Position numbers and translations under genes: made by a program. A DNA stretch of 37,307 bases from Ectothiorhodospira haloalkaliphila ATCC 51935 (lineage in GTDB: Bacteria > Pseudomonadota > Gammaproteobacteria > Ectothiorhodospirales > Ectothiorhodospiraceae). The notes beneath the pieces were generated by a model, which ran no database searches, was not told the origin of the DNA, and saw only the letters and a list, made by a program, of their open reading frames with translations. Shown one piece after another: positions 3,485-8,932 of this stretch. The stretch lies in contig NZ_KK214995.1 in assembly GCF_000633935.1 (NCBI RefSeq), positions 1 to 37,307 of the forward strand, given 5' to 3'. Numbering within the stretch: the first letter of the stretch is position 1; each line of letters begins with the position of its first letter.

Positions 3485-4558
3485 ATGCGTGTACTCTCTT
3501 CATCGTCCGCCGAGCCCGCACCGATGGCTCGGACTCAAGCCGACCCGGAGCCTGCTGCCCGAGCCGAGCGCAGGACCCGTCATGACCTGGCCAGTCGCAC
3601 CGGCCTGTCGGATGCCCGCCTGCTCATGCGAGAACTGGGTGATGGCCTGGTGCGCCTCAGGCCGAACTGGGATGAACTACTCCCGGCCCTGGAATCCCTG
3701 GGCACTGTGCGGGCCGTGACCCGTAACGCCCATGTCATCCATCAGAGCGTGGGCAGCCTTGGCCATGCGCACGTCCGCGAAGACATGGGTTGGCTGGTCG
3801 GCAGTGGCATGGACCTGCGACTGATGCTCGGCCACTGGCATCACGCCCTGGCCGTGGTTGCGCGGGATAACCCGATGGCGGAACGCGGGGTGTATTTCTT
3901 TGATGCCGACGGCAGTCAGGTTCATGGCGTGGAGCTCACTTCCGAATCCAGTCAGGGGGCTTTCGCGGCCCTGGTGACGCGTTTTCGCGGGCCGCGGCTG
4001 ACGCCGGAATTCCTGTCGTGTGCGCCTGTCGTGCAGTCGCCCGCCCGACGCATTCCCCTGGTGGATATCGTGGATCTCAGGGTTCGCTGGGATGCCATGG
4101 GTGAACCGGGTGACTTTTCGGACCTGCTGGCGCATTTCGGCATGACGCGGCTCAACGCCCTGCGGTTGGCGGGTCCGGGCCGAGCCTTCTCCGTGGGGGT
4201 GGAGTCCGGATGCACCCTGCTGGAATACATCCGGGATGAGGCCTTGTCGGTGGAAGTGCATGTGGCCAATGTCGGTGCCGTGCAGATCCATCACGGCTAT
4301 GTGGGGAGTTTCCGCGAGGCCGACGATTGGTGGCGGATCAGGAATCCCCGGTTCAGTCTGGATCTGCGCCGTGCCGGGCTCGCCGAGGTGTGGGTGGTCC
4401 GTCGCCCAACGCATCGTGGCCCGGTGCATTCCCTGGAGTGGTATGGTTTCGATGGCAGCCTGTTGATGCAGATCTTTGGCCATCGGTCCACGGGGGGTGT
4501 CGAGGATGCACGATGGCGGCATCTGCTGGGCTCTTTGGAAGGCGATCGAACCGACTGA
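3485..4558 (+). CDS. HmuS-like hemin-degrading factor (357 aa)
   Basis: The start at 3485 is chosen because AGGAGG lies just upstream; a longer in-frame extension to 3446 lacks this. The protein follows HmuS/HemS closely: an N-terminal helix-turn-helix-like stretch (LGDGLVRLRPNWDELLPAL), ALESLGTVRAVTRNAHVIHQ, DLRLMLGHWHHALAV, VYFFDADGSQVHGVEL and, in the second repeat, VEVHVANVGAVQIHHGYV, DLRRAGLAEVWVVRRPT and SLEWYGFDGSLLMQIFGHR. The first-repeat HWHHA segment is in the usual position of heme-contacting histidines. HmuS proteins bind cytoplasmic heme and support iron release. It is divergent from the IsdG-like gene and lies 241 bases upstream of the ferrosome-like operon on the same strand. 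No heme importer genes are found beside it. Confidence 0.85.
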   Translation: MRVLSSSSAEPAPMARTQADPEPAARAERRTRHDLASRTGLSDARLLMRELGDGLVRLRPNWDELLPALESLGTVRAVTRNAHVIHQSVGSLGHAHVREDMGWLVGSGMDLRLMLGHWHHALAVVARDNPMAERGVYFFDADGSQVHGVELTSESSQGAFAALVTRFRGPRLTPEFLSCAPVVQSPARRIPLVDIVDLRVRWDAMGEPGDFSDLLAHFGMTRLNALRLAGPGRAFSVGVESGCTLLEYIRDEALSVEVHVANVGAVQIHHGYVGSFREADDWWRIRNPRFSLDLRRAGLAEVWVVRRPTHRGPVHSLEWYGFDGSLLMQIFGHRSTGGVEDARWRHLLGSLEGDRTD

Positions 4559-4799
4559 GAACCCGGGGCTTGCGCGAACTGATGAAGCACCCGGCTTGGC
4601 GTTCAAGGCACGCCATGTCATGATGACGGAGTACGGATCCTGAGCGATCTACCCGAATCAACCGTACGTCACTCCAGCCAGCCGCCGCCAGCCAAGTGAC
4701 GCCATCCCGGAGTAATGGGTGCGTGACCTTGATGCCTGAAAGTTCTCCTCTGCGCGCAAGCGCTCCTGAGTGGCCACCGTGCCTGTTGGCAGGTGCGCC

Positions 4800-5141
4800 A
4801 TGATTCAGCTTGATGACGTGCGTGCCGTGCTCGACGATGTGCGGATCGCCCATCACGTGCGTGGGCGCGTGCGACTGAAACTTGTCCGCGACCCTCAGCT
4901 CCAGAAGTCCCCTTCCGGGGCCTTGATCGAAACACTTCAGGTTCTGTTGGCATCATTGCCCGGGGTGCGCGATGTGCGTATCAACCTGCTGGCCCGTTCC
5001 TGCGTGGTGGACTATGACCCGGAGACGATTCCGCCCGAGGCCTGGGCGGATTTTCTGGCCGGTGAGCGCACGCCGTCGGCAGACCGGCTGGAAAAGGTGC
5101 TGGAGCAGGCCTGCCGGGAAGTCAGCGATGCCCTGTCCTGA
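4800..5141 (+). CDS. HMA-like protein without CxxC, first gene of ferrosome-like operon (113 aa)
   Basis: A ferredoxin-like heavy-metal-associated (HMA-2-like) fold is suggested by the beta-alpha-beta pattern: HHVRGRVRLKL, then a helix ending LASLPGVRDVRINLLARSCVVDYDP. The metal-binding CxxC of classical HMA domains is absent; in its place stands HHVRGRVR. The same H-x-x-RGRVR signature opens the P-type ATPase at 6288 in this operon, which argues that the two proteins share an ancestry or a partner. The start at 4800 has AGGTG upstream; the frame could extend to 4770 but without a ribosome site. Its likely role is an accessory factor in iron loading of the compartment; this is inference. Confidence 0.7.
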   Translation: MIQLDDVRAVLDDVRIAHHVRGRVRLKLVRDPQLQKSPSGALIETLQVLLASLPGVRDVRINLLARSCVVDYDPETIPPEAWADFLAGERTPSADRLEKVLEQACREVSDALS

Positions 5142-5235
5142 CACGACGACAGATCACCGCATCCCGAGGAATCCCCGGGCCTGGGGATTGTCTCACATTA
5201 AATAAGGTGTCGCGGAATTGAGGAGGAAAAGCACC

Positions 5236-5496
5236 ATGATACCGTTACTTCCCTTTGCCGCCGGGGTGATTACCGGCGCGGTCGCGGTGCGACTGTTGAA
5301 GACGGATCGCACCCGCAAGACGCTCCACCAGGCCGGGGACCGTCTGCGGGATGCCACCGTATCCAGCCTGGAGGGCATCGAGAATACTTCTGCCCGTGCG
5401 CGTCGACGGCTCGCGAGAGCCGAGGCCGCCAAGGCGGCCGATGGCGATTCCGTGATCGATGCCGATGCTGAAAAGCCTGACGGGCCCGCCTCTTGA
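5236..5496 (+). CDS. Small single-pass membrane protein of the ferrosome-like operon (86 aa)
   Basis: The start at 5236 follows GAGGAGGAAA with ideal spacing; an upstream TTG at 5218 overlaps that site and is rejected. Residues about 3-21 (PLLPFAAGVITGAVAVRLL) form one hydrophobic segment with GxxxG-type spacing. The rest is a basic, alanine/arginine-rich helix (ARARRRLARAEAAKAAD) and an acidic tail. This resembles YtxH-like or small accessory membrane proteins. I recognise no enzyme motif. Its stop overlaps the TTG start of the next gene, indicating translational coupling. Confidence 0.75.
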   Translation: MIPLLPFAAGVITGAVAVRLLKTDRTRKTLHQAGDRLRDATVSSLEGIENTSARARRRLARAEAAKAADGDSVIDADAEKPDGPAS

Positions 5497-5879
5497 AGCC
5501 GGGTGATCGACGCTTGAGGCGCCTGCCGCCGCCCATGCCAGGCCCCTTGCCACCCCCCCGCGACGGTAATCCTTTCGTTCGTGGCCTGGTGGTGGGGGGG
5601 TGCCTGGCCGCCTTTCGCGGCGTGGGGCGCCGGGGAGCACCCCGCCCGACGAAACACATCCTTCGCCACGCCCTTCAGGAGGGCACCGCGCTGGCCGCCG
5701 GTACGCGGGCAGCCGTGGCGGTGGGCCAACGGGATTATACCGGTGCCCTGACGGCTGCCGCCGCAGGCGCAGCCGGTGTATTGATCATTGAACGCCTCCT
5801 GGGCGACTCGCCCGAGGCCAGACGGGAGTCAGTGAATGGGAAAGAAACGCAAGAAAAAGGAAGCAAGACGTCGGCGTGA
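5493..5879 (+). CDS. Glycine/alanine-rich membrane protein of the ferrosome-like operon (128 aa)
   Basis: The most likely start is TTG at 5493, overlapping the stop of the previous gene; an internal ATG at 5535 is an alternative, but no clear ribosome site favours either. A proline-rich head (PPPMPGPLPPP) is followed by two hydrophobic glycine/alanine-rich segments, FVRGLVVGGCLAAFRGV and ALTAAAAGAAGVLIIERLL, with small-residue packing motifs suited to tight helix association or membrane curvature. It ends with a charged tail that overlaps the next gene by 44 bases. No family is recognised. Position suggests a structural role in the compartment membrane. Confidence 0.65.
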   Translation: MKPGDRRLRRLPPPMPGPLPPPRDGNPFVRGLVVGGCLAAFRGVGRRGAPRPTKHILRHALQEGTALAAGTRAAVAVGQRDYTGALTAAAAGAAGVLIIERLLGDSPEARRESVNGKETQEKGSKTSA

Positions 5880-6288
5880 AGCCATGTACGAGGGCTATGG
5901 ATGGGGGCCGCGAGATCCGGCCTATCAGGGCTACGGCCCGGGCTATGGGCCCTACGGCGAGGGTCCCTGGGGATATGATGCCTACAACGATCCGCGAGGT
6001 GCCCAGGGGCGCTACGGGTATGGTTATGGTGAGGGTGCCCGCGACGGCGAGGGCCTGTTCGATGGCTTGAAGGGCATGCTGCGCGGTCGCCATAGTGAGC
6101 AGTTCCTGCTGGGCCTGGCCATCGGCGCCGGCGCCGCCTGGGTGCTCAGCGACGAGGAGACCCGTCGCAAGCTGATGAAGGCCGGCGTTGATCTCTATTC
6201 CGGTGTGGCCGGCGGCGTGGAGGAACTCAAGGAACAGATGGCCGATATCAAGGCGGAACTGGACGCCGAACGTCACGGGGATCAGTGA
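5836..6288 (+). CDS. Gly/Tyr-rich protein with YtxH-like C-terminus (150 aa)
   Basis: GGGAG lies upstream of the ATG at 5836. The protein has three parts. A strongly basic head (MGKKRKKKEARRRRE) comes first. Residues about 18-65 are a low-complexity Gly/Tyr/Pro region with repeated GYG, GYGP and YGYG units. A hydrophobic segment at about 90-104 (FLLGLAIGAGAAWVLS) is followed by a long amphipathic helix (DEETRRKLMKAGVDLYSGV...EELKEQMADIKAELDAE) like YtxH-type proteins. Such a layout suits a membrane-anchored scaffold with a sticky or mineral-interacting tail. The stop overlaps the start of the ATPase gene (TGATG). Function is inferred from context only. Confidence 0.75.
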   Translation: MGKKRKKKEARRRREAMYEGYGWGPRDPAYQGYGPGYGPYGEGPWGYDAYNDPRGAQGRYGYGYGEGARDGEGLFDGLKGMLRGRHSEQFLLGLAIGAGAAWVLSDEETRRKLMKAGVDLYSGVAGGVEELKEQMADIKAELDAERHGDQ

Positions 6289-8402
6289 TGGACGAAACCT
6301 GGTTCAGCGGCGTTGAGCCCGTGCACGCCATCCGCGGACGGGTGCGTTTTCGCTACCGACGACGTCCGTCGATGCCCGCCGAGGGTCGTCGCATCTGCTC
6401 GGCGGTGGCCTCCATCGAAGGGGTGGAGTCCGTGCGCGTCAACGAGCGAATCGATTCGCTGGTGATCCGCTTTGAACCGGAGGTGACCGACCTGTCCCGC
6501 CTGCGGGAGGGCATTCTGTCGCTGACTGCCCCGCCGCTGTCGCGCAACGCCGGCCGCAGTCGCAATGACGAGGCCAGCCTGCTGGCGGTGGGATTCGGGG
6601 GGGTGACCCTGATGCTGACCCGCTGGTTGCCCCCCTGGCTGCAACTTCCCCTGTCGATTGCCATCGCCCTGCCGGTACTGGGGGCGGCGGTGCGCGATCT
6701 GTTCCGCCAGGGGATCACCTCTCATGTTCTCGAGGCGCTGGCGGTGATCATCTCCATTGCCCGCCGCGACTACTTTGCCGCCAACACCACCGCCTTCCTG
6801 CTGGCACTGGGGGAGTATCTGGAACACTCCATCCAGCGTCGTTCCGACGATCTGCTCAAGCATCTGATGCGCCCGGGCGATACCGAGGTCTGGGTGGAAC
6901 GGGATGGGGTGGAACTGCTGGTGGATGCGCGGCAGGTACGTACCGGTGATACGGTCATCGCCGCCACCGGCACGGTGATCCCCGTGGATGGCACGGTGCT
7001 GGGGGGCGAGGCGCTGGTGAACGAGTCCACCATGACCGGCGAGAGCGTACCCGTGACCCGTCGTCGCGGCGATACGGCGCTGTCGGGCACCCTGGTGCAG
7101 GAAGGGCGCATCCGCATCTACGCCGAGCGGGTGGGGCGCCATGCCGCGGCGGCCCGGATTGCCGACTTCGTGGAGCACTCTCTGGAGGCCAAGAGCAACA
7201 CGCAGCTGGAGGCGGCCAGGCTGGCGGATCGACTGGTCCCCATGGTGCTGGGGCTCTCGGGTGGCACCTGGGTGGTGTCCCAGGATACCGAGCGGGTGGC
7301 GGCGGTGCTGCAGGCGGACTACTCCTGTGCGCTCAAGCTGGCCACCCCCGTGGCGTTCAAGTCCGCCATGTACCGGGCGGGTCAGTCGGGCATGCTGGTC
7401 AAGGGGGCCACGGCGCTGGAAAAACTCGCCGAGGCCGACACCTTCGTGTTCGACAAGACCGGCACCCTCAGCAGCGGTCAGCTGCAGGTCACCGATTCCA
7501 TCGCCTTCGACAGTCAGTACACCTCCGAGGACCTGATCAACATGGCCGCCTCGGTGGAGGAGCATTATTTTCATCCCATGGCCATGGCGGTGGTGGAGGC
7601 GGCGGAGCGGTTGCCGCATCAGCAACACTTCAATCATAAGGAAGTGGAGTTCATTGTGGCTCATGGGGTGGCCAGCAGCATCGAGGGCCGGCGCATCGTG
7701 GTGGGCTCCCGACATTTCCTGGAGGAACACGAAGGGATCGACATGGAACCCTTCTCGGCCGTGATCGAGCGCCTGCGGAACGATGGCAAGACGCTGCTCT
7801 ACATCGGCTATGGTGGTGAGTTGCTGGGGGTGCTGGCGCTCAAGGACACGCTACGCTCCAATGCCGCGGCCACCGTGCAGCGGTTGCGACAGCTGGGCGT
7901 GGGCCGGGTGATCATGCTCACGGGGGATCAGCCGGAACGGGCCCGCCTCATGGCGGAACACCTGGGGCTGGATGACTACCGGGCGGGGCTCATGCCCGAG
8001 GATAAGGCACTGGCCCTGAAGAACCTGGCGGGAGAGGGTGCCCGCATTGCCTTCGTGGGAGATGGCATCAACGATGCCCCGGCCCTGTCGGGGGCCCATG
8101 TGGGCATGGCCATGCATCATGGGGCGGATGTGGCGCGTCTGGCGGCGGACATCACGCTGCTGGAGGATGATATCGCCCGGGTGGCCGATGCCAAGGCCCT
8201 GGCCCTGGCCACGCGTGGGCTGGTGGACAGTAATTTCAAGCTCACCGTGGGGTTGAATACGGGCATTCTCTCCGCCGCCGCCTTCGGGTTGCTGAATCCG
8301 GTGGCGGCCTCGGCGCTGCACAATGGCAGCACCATCGGCATTCTTTTGCGTGCCCTGGCCGGCGCCGGCTTGTCACGGGGGCAGGCTGCCCGGGCAGCCT
8401 GA
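6288..8402 (+). CDS. fezB: P1B-type ATPase, FezB-like (704 aa)
   Basis: A heavy-metal-transporting P-type ATPase. An HMA-like N-terminus (residues 11-65) carries HAIRGRVRFRYRRRP in place of CxxC. Then come paired membrane helices from about 95, the actuator loop with TGES (250-253), an ion-site helix DYSCALKLATP (SCA at 346-348 instead of CPC/SPC/TPC), DKTGT with the phosphorylated D389, EEHYFHPMA (the HP motif) and the hinge GDGINDAPAL near residue 590. The SCA-type site and arginine-rich non-CxxC N-terminus fit the P1B-6 class that includes FezB of ferrosomes, which loads iron into membrane-bound compartments. The start at 6288 overlaps the previous stop; GTG at 6285 is also possible. Substrate iron is inferred from class and context. 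Confidence 0.8.
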   Translation: MDETWFSGVEPVHAIRGRVRFRYRRRPSMPAEGRRICSAVASIEGVESVRVNERIDSLVIRFEPEVTDLSRLREGILSLTAPPLSRNAGRSRNDEASLLAVGFGGVTLMLTRWLPPWLQLPLSIAIALPVLGAAVRDLFRQGITSHVLEALAVIISIARRDYFAANTTAFLLALGEYLEHSIQRRSDDLLKHLMRPGDTEVWVERDGVELLVDARQVRTGDTVIAATGTVIPVDGTVLGGEALVNESTMTGESVPVTRRRGDTALSGTLVQEGRIRIYAERVGRHAAAARIADFVEHSLEAKSNTQLEAARLADRLVPMVLGLSGGTWVVSQDTERVAAVLQADYSCALKLATPVAFKSAMYRAGQSGMLVKGATALEKLAEADTFVFDKTGTLSSGQLQVTDSIAFDSQYTSEDLINMAASVEEHYFHPMAMAVVEAAERLPHQQHFNHKEVEFIVAHGVASSIEGRRIVVGSRHFLEEHEGIDMEPFSAVIERLRNDGKTLLYIGYGGELLGVLALKDTLRSNAAATVQRLRQLGVGRVIMLTGDQPERARLMAEHLGLDDYRAGLMPEDKALALKNLAGEGARIAFVGDGINDAPALSGAHVGMAMHHGADVARLAADITLLEDDIARVADAKALALATRGLVDSNFKLTVGLNTGILSAAAFGLLNPVAASALHNGSTIGILLRALAGAGLSRGQAARAA

Positions 8403-8444
8403 GCCTGCCAGGCATCGTCATGCAGTCCCTTTTTGTGTTTTATT

Positions 8445-8461
8445 TGATTGAATGATTATCA
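8445..8461. promoter_or_regulatory. Fur-like box upstream of the FMN-binding lipoprotein
   Basis: TGATTGAATGATTATCA contains, read on the minus strand, TGATAATCATT, a perfect left half and centre of the 7-1-7 Fur motif, with a degraded right half. It lies 18 bases before the start of the lipoprotein gene and overlaps the expected promoter zone in an AT-rich stretch. Iron-dependent repression of the downstream gene is inferred. Confidence 0.55.
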
Positions 8462-8479
8462 CTAAAAAGGAGAAAATCC

Positions 8480-8932
8480 ATGTCATTGAGATGTCGTTGG
8501 CCCGTGATCATTGCGCTGCCATTCATGCTGGCGGGCTGCTGGGGCCCGGAAACGGGGGAGCAGGCACCGGTTTATGAAGATGGCACCTACCGGGGTGGTT
8601 TCTTCGACCGTGACCAGATACAGGTGGGGGTGCAACTCACCCTGGAAAACAACCGTGTGACCGCCGCCGGCTTCCGCCAACTGGCCTATGGGGGGACGGA
8701 TTATCGACTGGCCGAGGAGGGTTTGCCCCTGGGGATTGCCGACCAGTACCGTGAACTGCTGGATCACATGCTGGGCAAGGACATCAACGAGGTCATCCCG
8801 GAGCTGTACTCACCCGGGGAGGTGGTGACGGAAAACGCGGAAGTGGACGGTTTCACCTCGGCCACCATCCGTTCGTCCAAGGTGATTTCAGCCATACGGG
8901 ATGCCCTGAACCGCGGCGTGTACAGCTACTGA
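8480..8932 (+). CDS. Lipoprotein with FMN_bind domain, probably flavinylated (150 aa)
   Basis: The ATG at 8480 follows AGGAG. A lipoprotein signal ends in the lipobox MLAGC with C20 as the acylated cysteine. The mature part begins YEDGTYRGG, as many FMN_bind domains do, and ends with DGFTSATIRSSKVISAIRDAL. D123-x-x-T126-S-A-T129 matches the covalent flavinylation motif Dxx(S/T)gAT except for serine at the small-residue position. FMN is attached to such threonines by ApbE, which is not in the window. The protein would be a one-electron carrier outside the cytoplasmic membrane. With a Fur-like box upstream it could serve extracytoplasmic ferric reduction; that role is inference. Confidence 0.75.
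   Translation: MSLRCRWPVIIALPFMLAGCWGPETGEQAPVYEDGTYRGGFFDRDQIQVGVQLTLENNRVTAAGFRQLAYGGTDYRLAEEGLPLGIADQYRELLDHMLGKDINEVIPELYSPGEVVTENAEVDGFTSATIRSSKVISAIRDALNRGVYSY

Follow-up and report, generated by a model that had tools for sequence, protein, structure and literature searches.

A probable ferrosome (fez) gene cluster with an unlinked FezC-like member in Ectothiorhodospira haloalkaliphila

Organization of the five-gene operon

The DNA analyzed here, referred to as the window, comprises 37,307 nucleotides (nt) of Ectothiorhodospira haloalkaliphila ATCC 51935 (assembly GCF_000633935.1, contig NZ_KK214995.1, positions 1 to 37,307 of the forward strand), and our interest lies in an operon of five genes that is probably part of a ferrosome (fez) cluster, a type of locus associated with iron-storing membrane compartments. 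As listed in Table 1, the operon encodes an HMA-like protein (H), a short YtxH-like protein (Y1), a small Gly/Ala-rich protein (T), a Gly/Tyr-rich YtxH-like protein (Y2), and a P1B-type ATPase. All five genes are on the + strand and three of the four junctions overlap (by 4, 44, and 1 nt), while the first junction is a 94-nt gap, which agrees with the five overlapping genes described in the initial annotation of this DNA. That annotation had also recognized the HMA-like protein lacking CxxC and the Gly/Tyr-rich YtxH-like protein, both of which are present. Of the two small hydrophobic proteins that it mentions, the second is the Gly/Ala-rich protein; the description of the first needs correction, since this protein and the Gly/Tyr-rich one are members of a single YtxH-like superfamily.

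The ATG start of the H gene matches that of the relative L039, with a GTG at 4770 being likewise open. In comparison with L039, whose ATPase is 91% identical, the ratios of nonsynonymous to synonymous substitution rates (dN/dS) were 0.22, 0.16, 0.16, 0.11, and 0.10 in gene order. The corresponding values with L042 were 0.47, 0.50, 0.40, 0.23, and 0.22 at a dS of ~1, and the more distant L042 and L041 together gave 0.15-0.50 at a dS near or >1, the L041 comparison omitting the short YtxH-like gene. All five genes look real and under purifying selection.

Table 1. Positions of the features described in the text (window coordinates unless a genome or locus is named; G000 is the window's own genome)
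Feature	Position	Strand	Remarks
HMA-like protein gene (H)	4800-5141	+	113 amino acids (aa); GRVRLK where CxxC would be
Short YtxH-like protein gene (Y1)	5236-5496	+	86 aa; located behind GAGGAGGA
Small Gly/Ala-rich protein gene (T)	5493-5879	+	128 aa; TTG start
Gly/Tyr-rich YtxH-like protein gene (Y2)	5836-6288	+	150 aa
FezB-type P1B-6 ATPase gene (assigned from sequence)	6288-8402	+	704 aa; HMA-like N-terminus without Cys; SCA in transmembrane helix 4 (TM4); HNGST in TM6
FezC-like HMA_2-DUF4405 gene, own genome	G000:C4:923995-924477 (L146, L149)		160 aa; found with a piece of a relative's cluster-adjoining HMA2 protein
FezC-like gene of G007	L166 4586-5092
33-bp block	4668-4700	+	Ends GTCACT...AGTGAC; upstream of operon; possible regulatory site
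Ferritin-like genes near ATPase	L056 4237-4920; L045 4447-4968; L112 5591-6130; L130 3152-3724; L117 1123-1668; L115 3935-4519

The ATPase and its class

The window ATPase contains TGES, DKTGT, GDGIND, SCA, and HNGST once each as well as an HP motif. No CxxC occurs in its first 110 residues, and neither CPC nor SPC was found in TM4, where SCA is present instead. SCA in TM4 is a mark of P1B-6 ATPases, although its frequency among the relatives is partly circular, as 80 loci were chosen by the pattern [VA]DYSCALK as the best 80 of 591 relatives. The motif HNG[STA]T is present in 97/97 related ATPases, and an HN motif in TM6 is given as a P1B6 feature in PMC9374683. Pfam recognized the ATPase domains clearly, and among generic models TIGR01525 scored 466 bits and the cadmium-type TIGR01512 scored 346 bits (cut-off 313.5). 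There were 24 matches to solved structures, none of which is named as a P1B-6 or iron ATPase.

In a maximum-likelihood tree of 43 of the 97 fez-type ATPases and nine other P1B ATPases, the two groups were separated with 100/100 support, and the window ATPase fell into one clade with its Shewanella, Vibrio, and Azospirillum homologues, with the Cu, Zn/Cd, and Co types outside. The nine others include E. coli CopA and ZntA along with a CPC-type and an SPC/HEGST-type ATPase of pMOL30, which we take to be CadA and CzcP, respectively. It should be noted that the tree contains long branches among these nine and an odd composition in nine rows, with the split itself being unaffected by the long branches. 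The motif scan agrees with the P1B-type ATPase having SCA and no CxxC that had been claimed earlier, and the phylogenetic placement named as contrary to that claim, i.e. among the Cu, Zn, or Co exporters, was looked for and the ATPase branched apart. Judged by its sequence, the window ATPase is a P1B-6 ATPase of the FezB type; a Cu, Zn/Cd, or Co exporter was rejected on the motifs together with the tree. A table in PMC7558416 lists Fe(II) as the P1B-6 substrate, and according to PMC4932525 no member of the class had been biochemically examined by 2016.

Two related ATPase loci were unusual. In L057, from plasmid pORIO2 of Cereibacter azotoformans, the ATPase has DYACPVK where the others have SCA, and its cluster is situated between TonB/FeoA and sigma factor/FecR/TonB genes on this conjugative-typed plasmid. 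L147 (G004:C53) holds part of a second ATPase copy (78% identity over query 173-701), and the small contig that carries it also has what looks like a DNA cytosine methyltransferase gene.

Small companion proteins and conserved gene order

Pfam matches of the window proteins to HMA_2, HMA, and YtxH were all below cut-offs (E 3e-5 to HMA_2 for H) and the Gly/Ala-rich protein yielded nothing usable. Plasmid p3 of Azospirillum brasilense Cd carries the same families in the same order (D9623_RS27375-27350). An HMA2 gene comes first in this cluster, followed by an HMA-type gene, two genes for hypothetical proteins, a YtxH gene, and the ATPase gene, with the annotations being HMA2, cation transporter, hypothetical, YtxH, and heavy-metal ATPase. 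The five window proteins matched its last five with E values of 1e-18, 2e-5, 0.03, 3e-20, and 0, at 42% identity for H, 36% for Y1, 62% over 64 aa for Y2, and 59% for the ATPase. The weak value of 0.03 is that of the Gly/Ala-rich protein, which matched its Arcobacter homologue at 4e-5. Iterated profiles from window seeds and from separate Shewanella/Vibrio seeds converged on the same sets of open reading frames (ORFs), with 162 HMA-type ORFs in 89 loci, 196-199 YtxH-type ORFs in 96 loci, and 98 Gly/Ala-type ORFs in 91 loci. The Y1 profile merged with the YtxH-like set of 96 loci, while the T profile and the Shewanella small-protein profile recovered the same 98 ORFs in 91 loci. Four of these profiles were run on controls and gave 0 matches on shuffled ORFs and 1, 2, 1, and 2 matches on ORFs outside recognized clusters. 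All but one of the latter were in L125, and the sole exception was an HMA-type gene in L131. Each of the small proteins has homologues in the Shewanella, Vibrio, Ferrimonas, and Azospirillum clusters, contrary to the initial annotation, which had recognized no close families for two of them.

The Gly/Tyr-rich N-terminus of Y2 is followed by a helix that has the Gly/Ala stretch typical of the YtxH-like proteins and then by a long charged helix. The structure models of both T and Y2 were weak, with a mean predicted local distance difference test (pLDDT) of 68 and predicted template modeling score (pTM) of 0.30 for T, which was helical, and 67 and 0.28 for Y2. A single family comprising T and Y was not supported (hhalign probability 8%).

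In the proposed synteny survey, profiles seeded from the window proteins recovered these families next to ATPases of 40-60% identity in Shewanella, Vibrio, Ferrimonas, Azospirillum, and Chromatiaceae, bearing out the fez-cluster architecture that had been claimed. It covered 97 loci: a set of 98 that excludes L044 (deletions) and L053 (internal stop), from which L125 was removed because its ATPase is cut. The H, Y, and T families occurred together beside the ATPase in 84/97 loci. In 55/97, among them Shewanella L087, Vibrio L070, and Ferrimonas L060, the arrangement is H-, H+, Y, T, Y, ATPase. Both counts are lowered by loci cut at contig ends. The window order is H+, Y, T, Y, ATPase. At E ≤1e-95, ATPase matches were found in 8 of 398 genomes across the phylum (its own included), and 12 of 72,556 plasmid records matched at 1e-100, indicating that the ATPase family is patchy. 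A ferritin-like gene (DUF2202/rubrerythrin-type, Pfam below cut-off) was found near the ATPase in 6/98 loci, including the query's own L056 (Table 1), and is a possible ferroxidase partner of ferrosomes.

A FezC-like gene elsewhere in the genome

A candidate sixth member, a FezC-like HMA_2-DUF4405 gene, is located on another contig of the same genome (Table 1), which together with the five genes in the window accounts for all six genes of the set; six-gene linkage was not found in this genome, the sixth gene being unlinked. Its product matched HMA_2 at E 1e-3 and, in its C-terminal part, DUF4405 at E 2.6e-4, both below cut-off, and two His residues of this tail were invariant in 8/8 aligned rows, with the Arcobacter row added by hand. 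Similar two-His tails were present on HMA-type proteins of five further loci labeled Thioalkalivibrio, Chromatiales, or Gammaproteobacteria (E 2e-8 or better), using a profile built from five sequences, whose own rows match by construction. In PMC11334425, FezC is described as a DUF4405-like cytochrome, with haem binding by its homodimer given as a possibility.

Within the genus, the FezC-like gene was present in all six genomes with a full-length ATPase (G000, G002, G003, G004, G005, and G007) and in none of the four others, a pattern with a chance of 1 in 210 by a hand calculation that ignores genome kinship. The gene adjoins the cluster in four genomes and is ~24 kb away in G007, while in the window's genome it is on a different contig; in both of the latter, its neighbors resemble, as judged by eye, genes for metal ABC transporters and TonB receptors. 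Since the FezC-like gene is co-inherited though unlinked, we can conclude that ferrosome gene sets can be split, and surveys confined to one operon may miss ferrosome members. The cluster kind itself is already known, and the new point is this putative unlinked FezC-like member. Six-gene linkage, although found in other lineages, is not required of ferrosomes, as those of C. difficile need FezA and FezB (PMC12574912).

Descent and state of the locus in the genus

The clade of the window ATPase was sister to Azospirillum (100/100) and then to Arcobacter (100/99), and forcing it together with the other Ectothiorhodospiraceae was rejected by the approximately unbiased (AU) test (p 9e-7) for a group named after the tree had been seen. 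As the ATPase groups with Azospirillum and Arcobacter and not with its own family, the simplest reading of the tree suggests that the fez operon was acquired by horizontal transfer. Three genus genomes besides G009 lack both the ATPase and the FezC-like gene. Photosynthetic reaction-centre genes were present in 10/10 genus genomes. An 11-kb stretch of G013 is the same as in the Thiorhodospira sibirica genome, so the family is that of this species. Of three HiPIP places in the window's genome, two were compared with the PDB, and both had 1hpi, from Ectothiorhodospira vacuolata, as their best match (E 6e-31 and 7e-22, followed by 6e-10 and 7e-9), in keeping with an Ectothiorhodospira host. In the near relative L044 (G009), the locus has three internal deletions (window 5050-5387, 5615-6114, and 6338-7962) and the genome has no FezC-like gene; a neighboring gene also seems shortened, so that this may be either decay or an assembly error.

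Comparison with known systems and interpretation

The six-gene fez operon of Shewanella has the same order of HMA-like, YtxH-like, Gly/Ala-rich, Gly/Tyr-rich YtxH-like, and P1B-6 ATPase genes and its ATPase is ~40% identical to that of the window. The two differ in that the sixth gene is linked in Shewanella but not in the window's genome, where it encodes a DUF4405-like tail; at E 0.05, no such tail was detected on the Shewanella HMA proteins of our sample. The first YtxH-like protein is also shorter in the window, with 86 aa vs 225-314 aa in the loci of Ferrimonas, Vibrio, and Shewanella that were compared. Similarly, the Azospirillum p3 cluster includes its FezC-like HMA_2 gene, while that of the window's genome is outside. 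The fezABC gene content of D. magneticus includes the cytochrome FezC, and a P1B-6 ATPase and a DUF4405-like FezC are common to both systems, which we likened by description rather than by alignment. The FezC-like gene would link two ferrosome layouts, one being an operon with small proteins of the YtxH-like and Gly/Ala-rich types and the other having the cytochrome FezC. The five-gene locus and its unlinked sixth gene probably constitute a ferrosome cluster closest to the six-gene kind, a likeness drawn from the Shewanella loci. In Rhodopseudomonas palustris CGA009, ferrosomes are attributed to six fez genes, RPA2333-2338 (PMC12016538), which are reported as decreased in low light along with many iron genes (PMC6879726).

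From this gene content, we infer iron as the substrate, the vesicles, haem binding, and a role for each small protein. Powered by ATP, FezB would carry cytosolic Fe(II) into the lumen of small membrane vesicles. Both YtxH-like proteins, along with the Gly/Ala-rich protein, would assemble FezB molecules and give the vesicle membrane its shape or its lining, with the Gly/Tyr-rich tail perhaps packing the vesicles or touching the mineral. The Cys-free HMA-like domains would serve as regulatory or docking modules rather than as thiol metal sites, and the unlinked FezC-like protein, a putative haem protein, may pass electrons across the membrane, keeping the iron in a redox state suited to storage or release.

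The same genes could instead form a plain Fe(II) export platform, with a P1B-6 ATPase in the cytoplasmic membrane, the YtxH-like proteins as PacL-like scaffolds, and no organelle. In mycobacteria, the efflux ATPase CtpC is clustered by PacL proteins, which have one TM and Glu/Ala repeats. This platform, like the window operon, pairs small TM-plus-charged-helix proteins with a P1B ATPase having HN in TM6, and genes for DUF6110 proteins typically accompany those for P1B6 ATPases; no organelle is described in the text cited (PMC9374683). The modeled C-terminal part of Y2, a helix followed by a long charged helix, also appears similar in layout. CtpC differs in having CPC in TM4. Against an export platform, neither DUF1490 nor DUF6110 was matched at E up to 1 by the window proteins or by the relatives scanned, and the families and their order match those beside the Shewanella ATPases. 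Shewanella putrefaciens makes ferrosomes, and overall we regard an export platform as unlikely. It is very unlikely that the ATPase exports Cu, Zn, Cd, or Co beside incidental neighbors, since the scores with TIGR01525 and with the cadmium-type model, which exceeded its cut-off, are set against SCA and HNGST in place of CPC/SPC, the lack of CxxC, a clade separate from the CopA, ZntA, CadA-like, and SPC-type ATPases, and the conserved neighbors. The deletion-bearing locus of G009, which has no FezC-like gene, and the three genomes devoid of both genes might also suggest a dying copy that was transferred in, parted from its FezC gene, and is being lost in the group, but with five open genes, dN/dS of 0.10-0.22 against L039, intact ATPase motifs, and a FezC-like gene retained despite being unlinked, we find this scarcely credible.

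Magnetic inclusions in Rhodopseudomonas and Ectothiorhodospira were reported by Vainshtein et al. 1997, as cited in the review PMC9160268. A matching gene set offers a genetic and directly testable explanation for the Ectothiorhodospira inclusions, which were reported alongside those of fez-bearing Rhodopseudomonas. We therefore raise, as a tentative though serious possibility, that Ectothiorhodospira forms ferrosomes from a transferred Azospirillum/Arcobacter-type fez operon together with a redox HMA_2-DUF4405 fusion haem protein encoded outside the operon, and that these cause the magnet-sensitive inclusions of 1997. We found no literature link of ferrosomes, via fez genes, to Ectothiorhodospira or Azospirillum in the sources available, and the surveys in the primary papers (Nature 2022, 2023) may list the genus.

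Several observations weigh against the ferrosome interpretation. According to the same review, the 1997 inclusions were without a lipid membrane, unlike ferrosomes, which speaks against ferrosomes unless a membrane was missed. The laboratory-tested operons (S. putrefaciens, R. palustris, D. magneticus, and C. difficile) were outside our alignments, in which Shewanella is represented by other species. The FezC-like gene was not among the hits of a Pfam HMA_2 search of the window's genome, and DUF4405 matches at E up to 0.1 were found in 11/14 control genomes (3 over cut-off) and in 10/10 genus genomes; we rejected DUF4405 as a lone marker, as the control matches make it too unspecific. Ferritins were present in 10/10 genus genomes, indicating iron storage independent of ferrosomes, and a lack of ferritin was accordingly ruled out as a reason for having them. 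Lastly, fezA and fezB of C. difficile are described as repressed by Fur (PMC12574912), and no clear Fur-like box was found at 4500-5250, where the best site matched 11/19 positions of the E. coli consensus; the rest of the window had 20 places with at least 12/19 matches vs 0-5 in 20 shuffles.

Upstream region and flanking genes

Rfam gave no match at E up to 1 for 4400-5400, and the RNA fold of the conserved upstream block was not better than shuffles (z 0.22). Predicted promoters and terminators at 4500-8600 numbered 1 and 3, compared with 0.5 and 1.7 in shuffles. The 33-bp block ahead of the operon (Table 1), which is possibly regulatory, had one copy each with 0 mismatches in 3/10 genus genomes (G000, G007, and G009), and the backwards control gave 0. 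The operon is flanked on its 5' side by HemS/ChuX-type and ABM-type genes and farther on its 3' side by genes for a FecCD-type permease, an ABC ATPase, and a TonB receptor. Directly 3' of the operon (8480-8932) is a gene for an FMN_bind-like protein (Pfam 21.3 bits; cut-off 22), which has a lipoprotein-like start and a DGFTSAT stretch that we take to be a possible site of flavin attachment. This protein is also found in L039 and hence in 2/98 loci.

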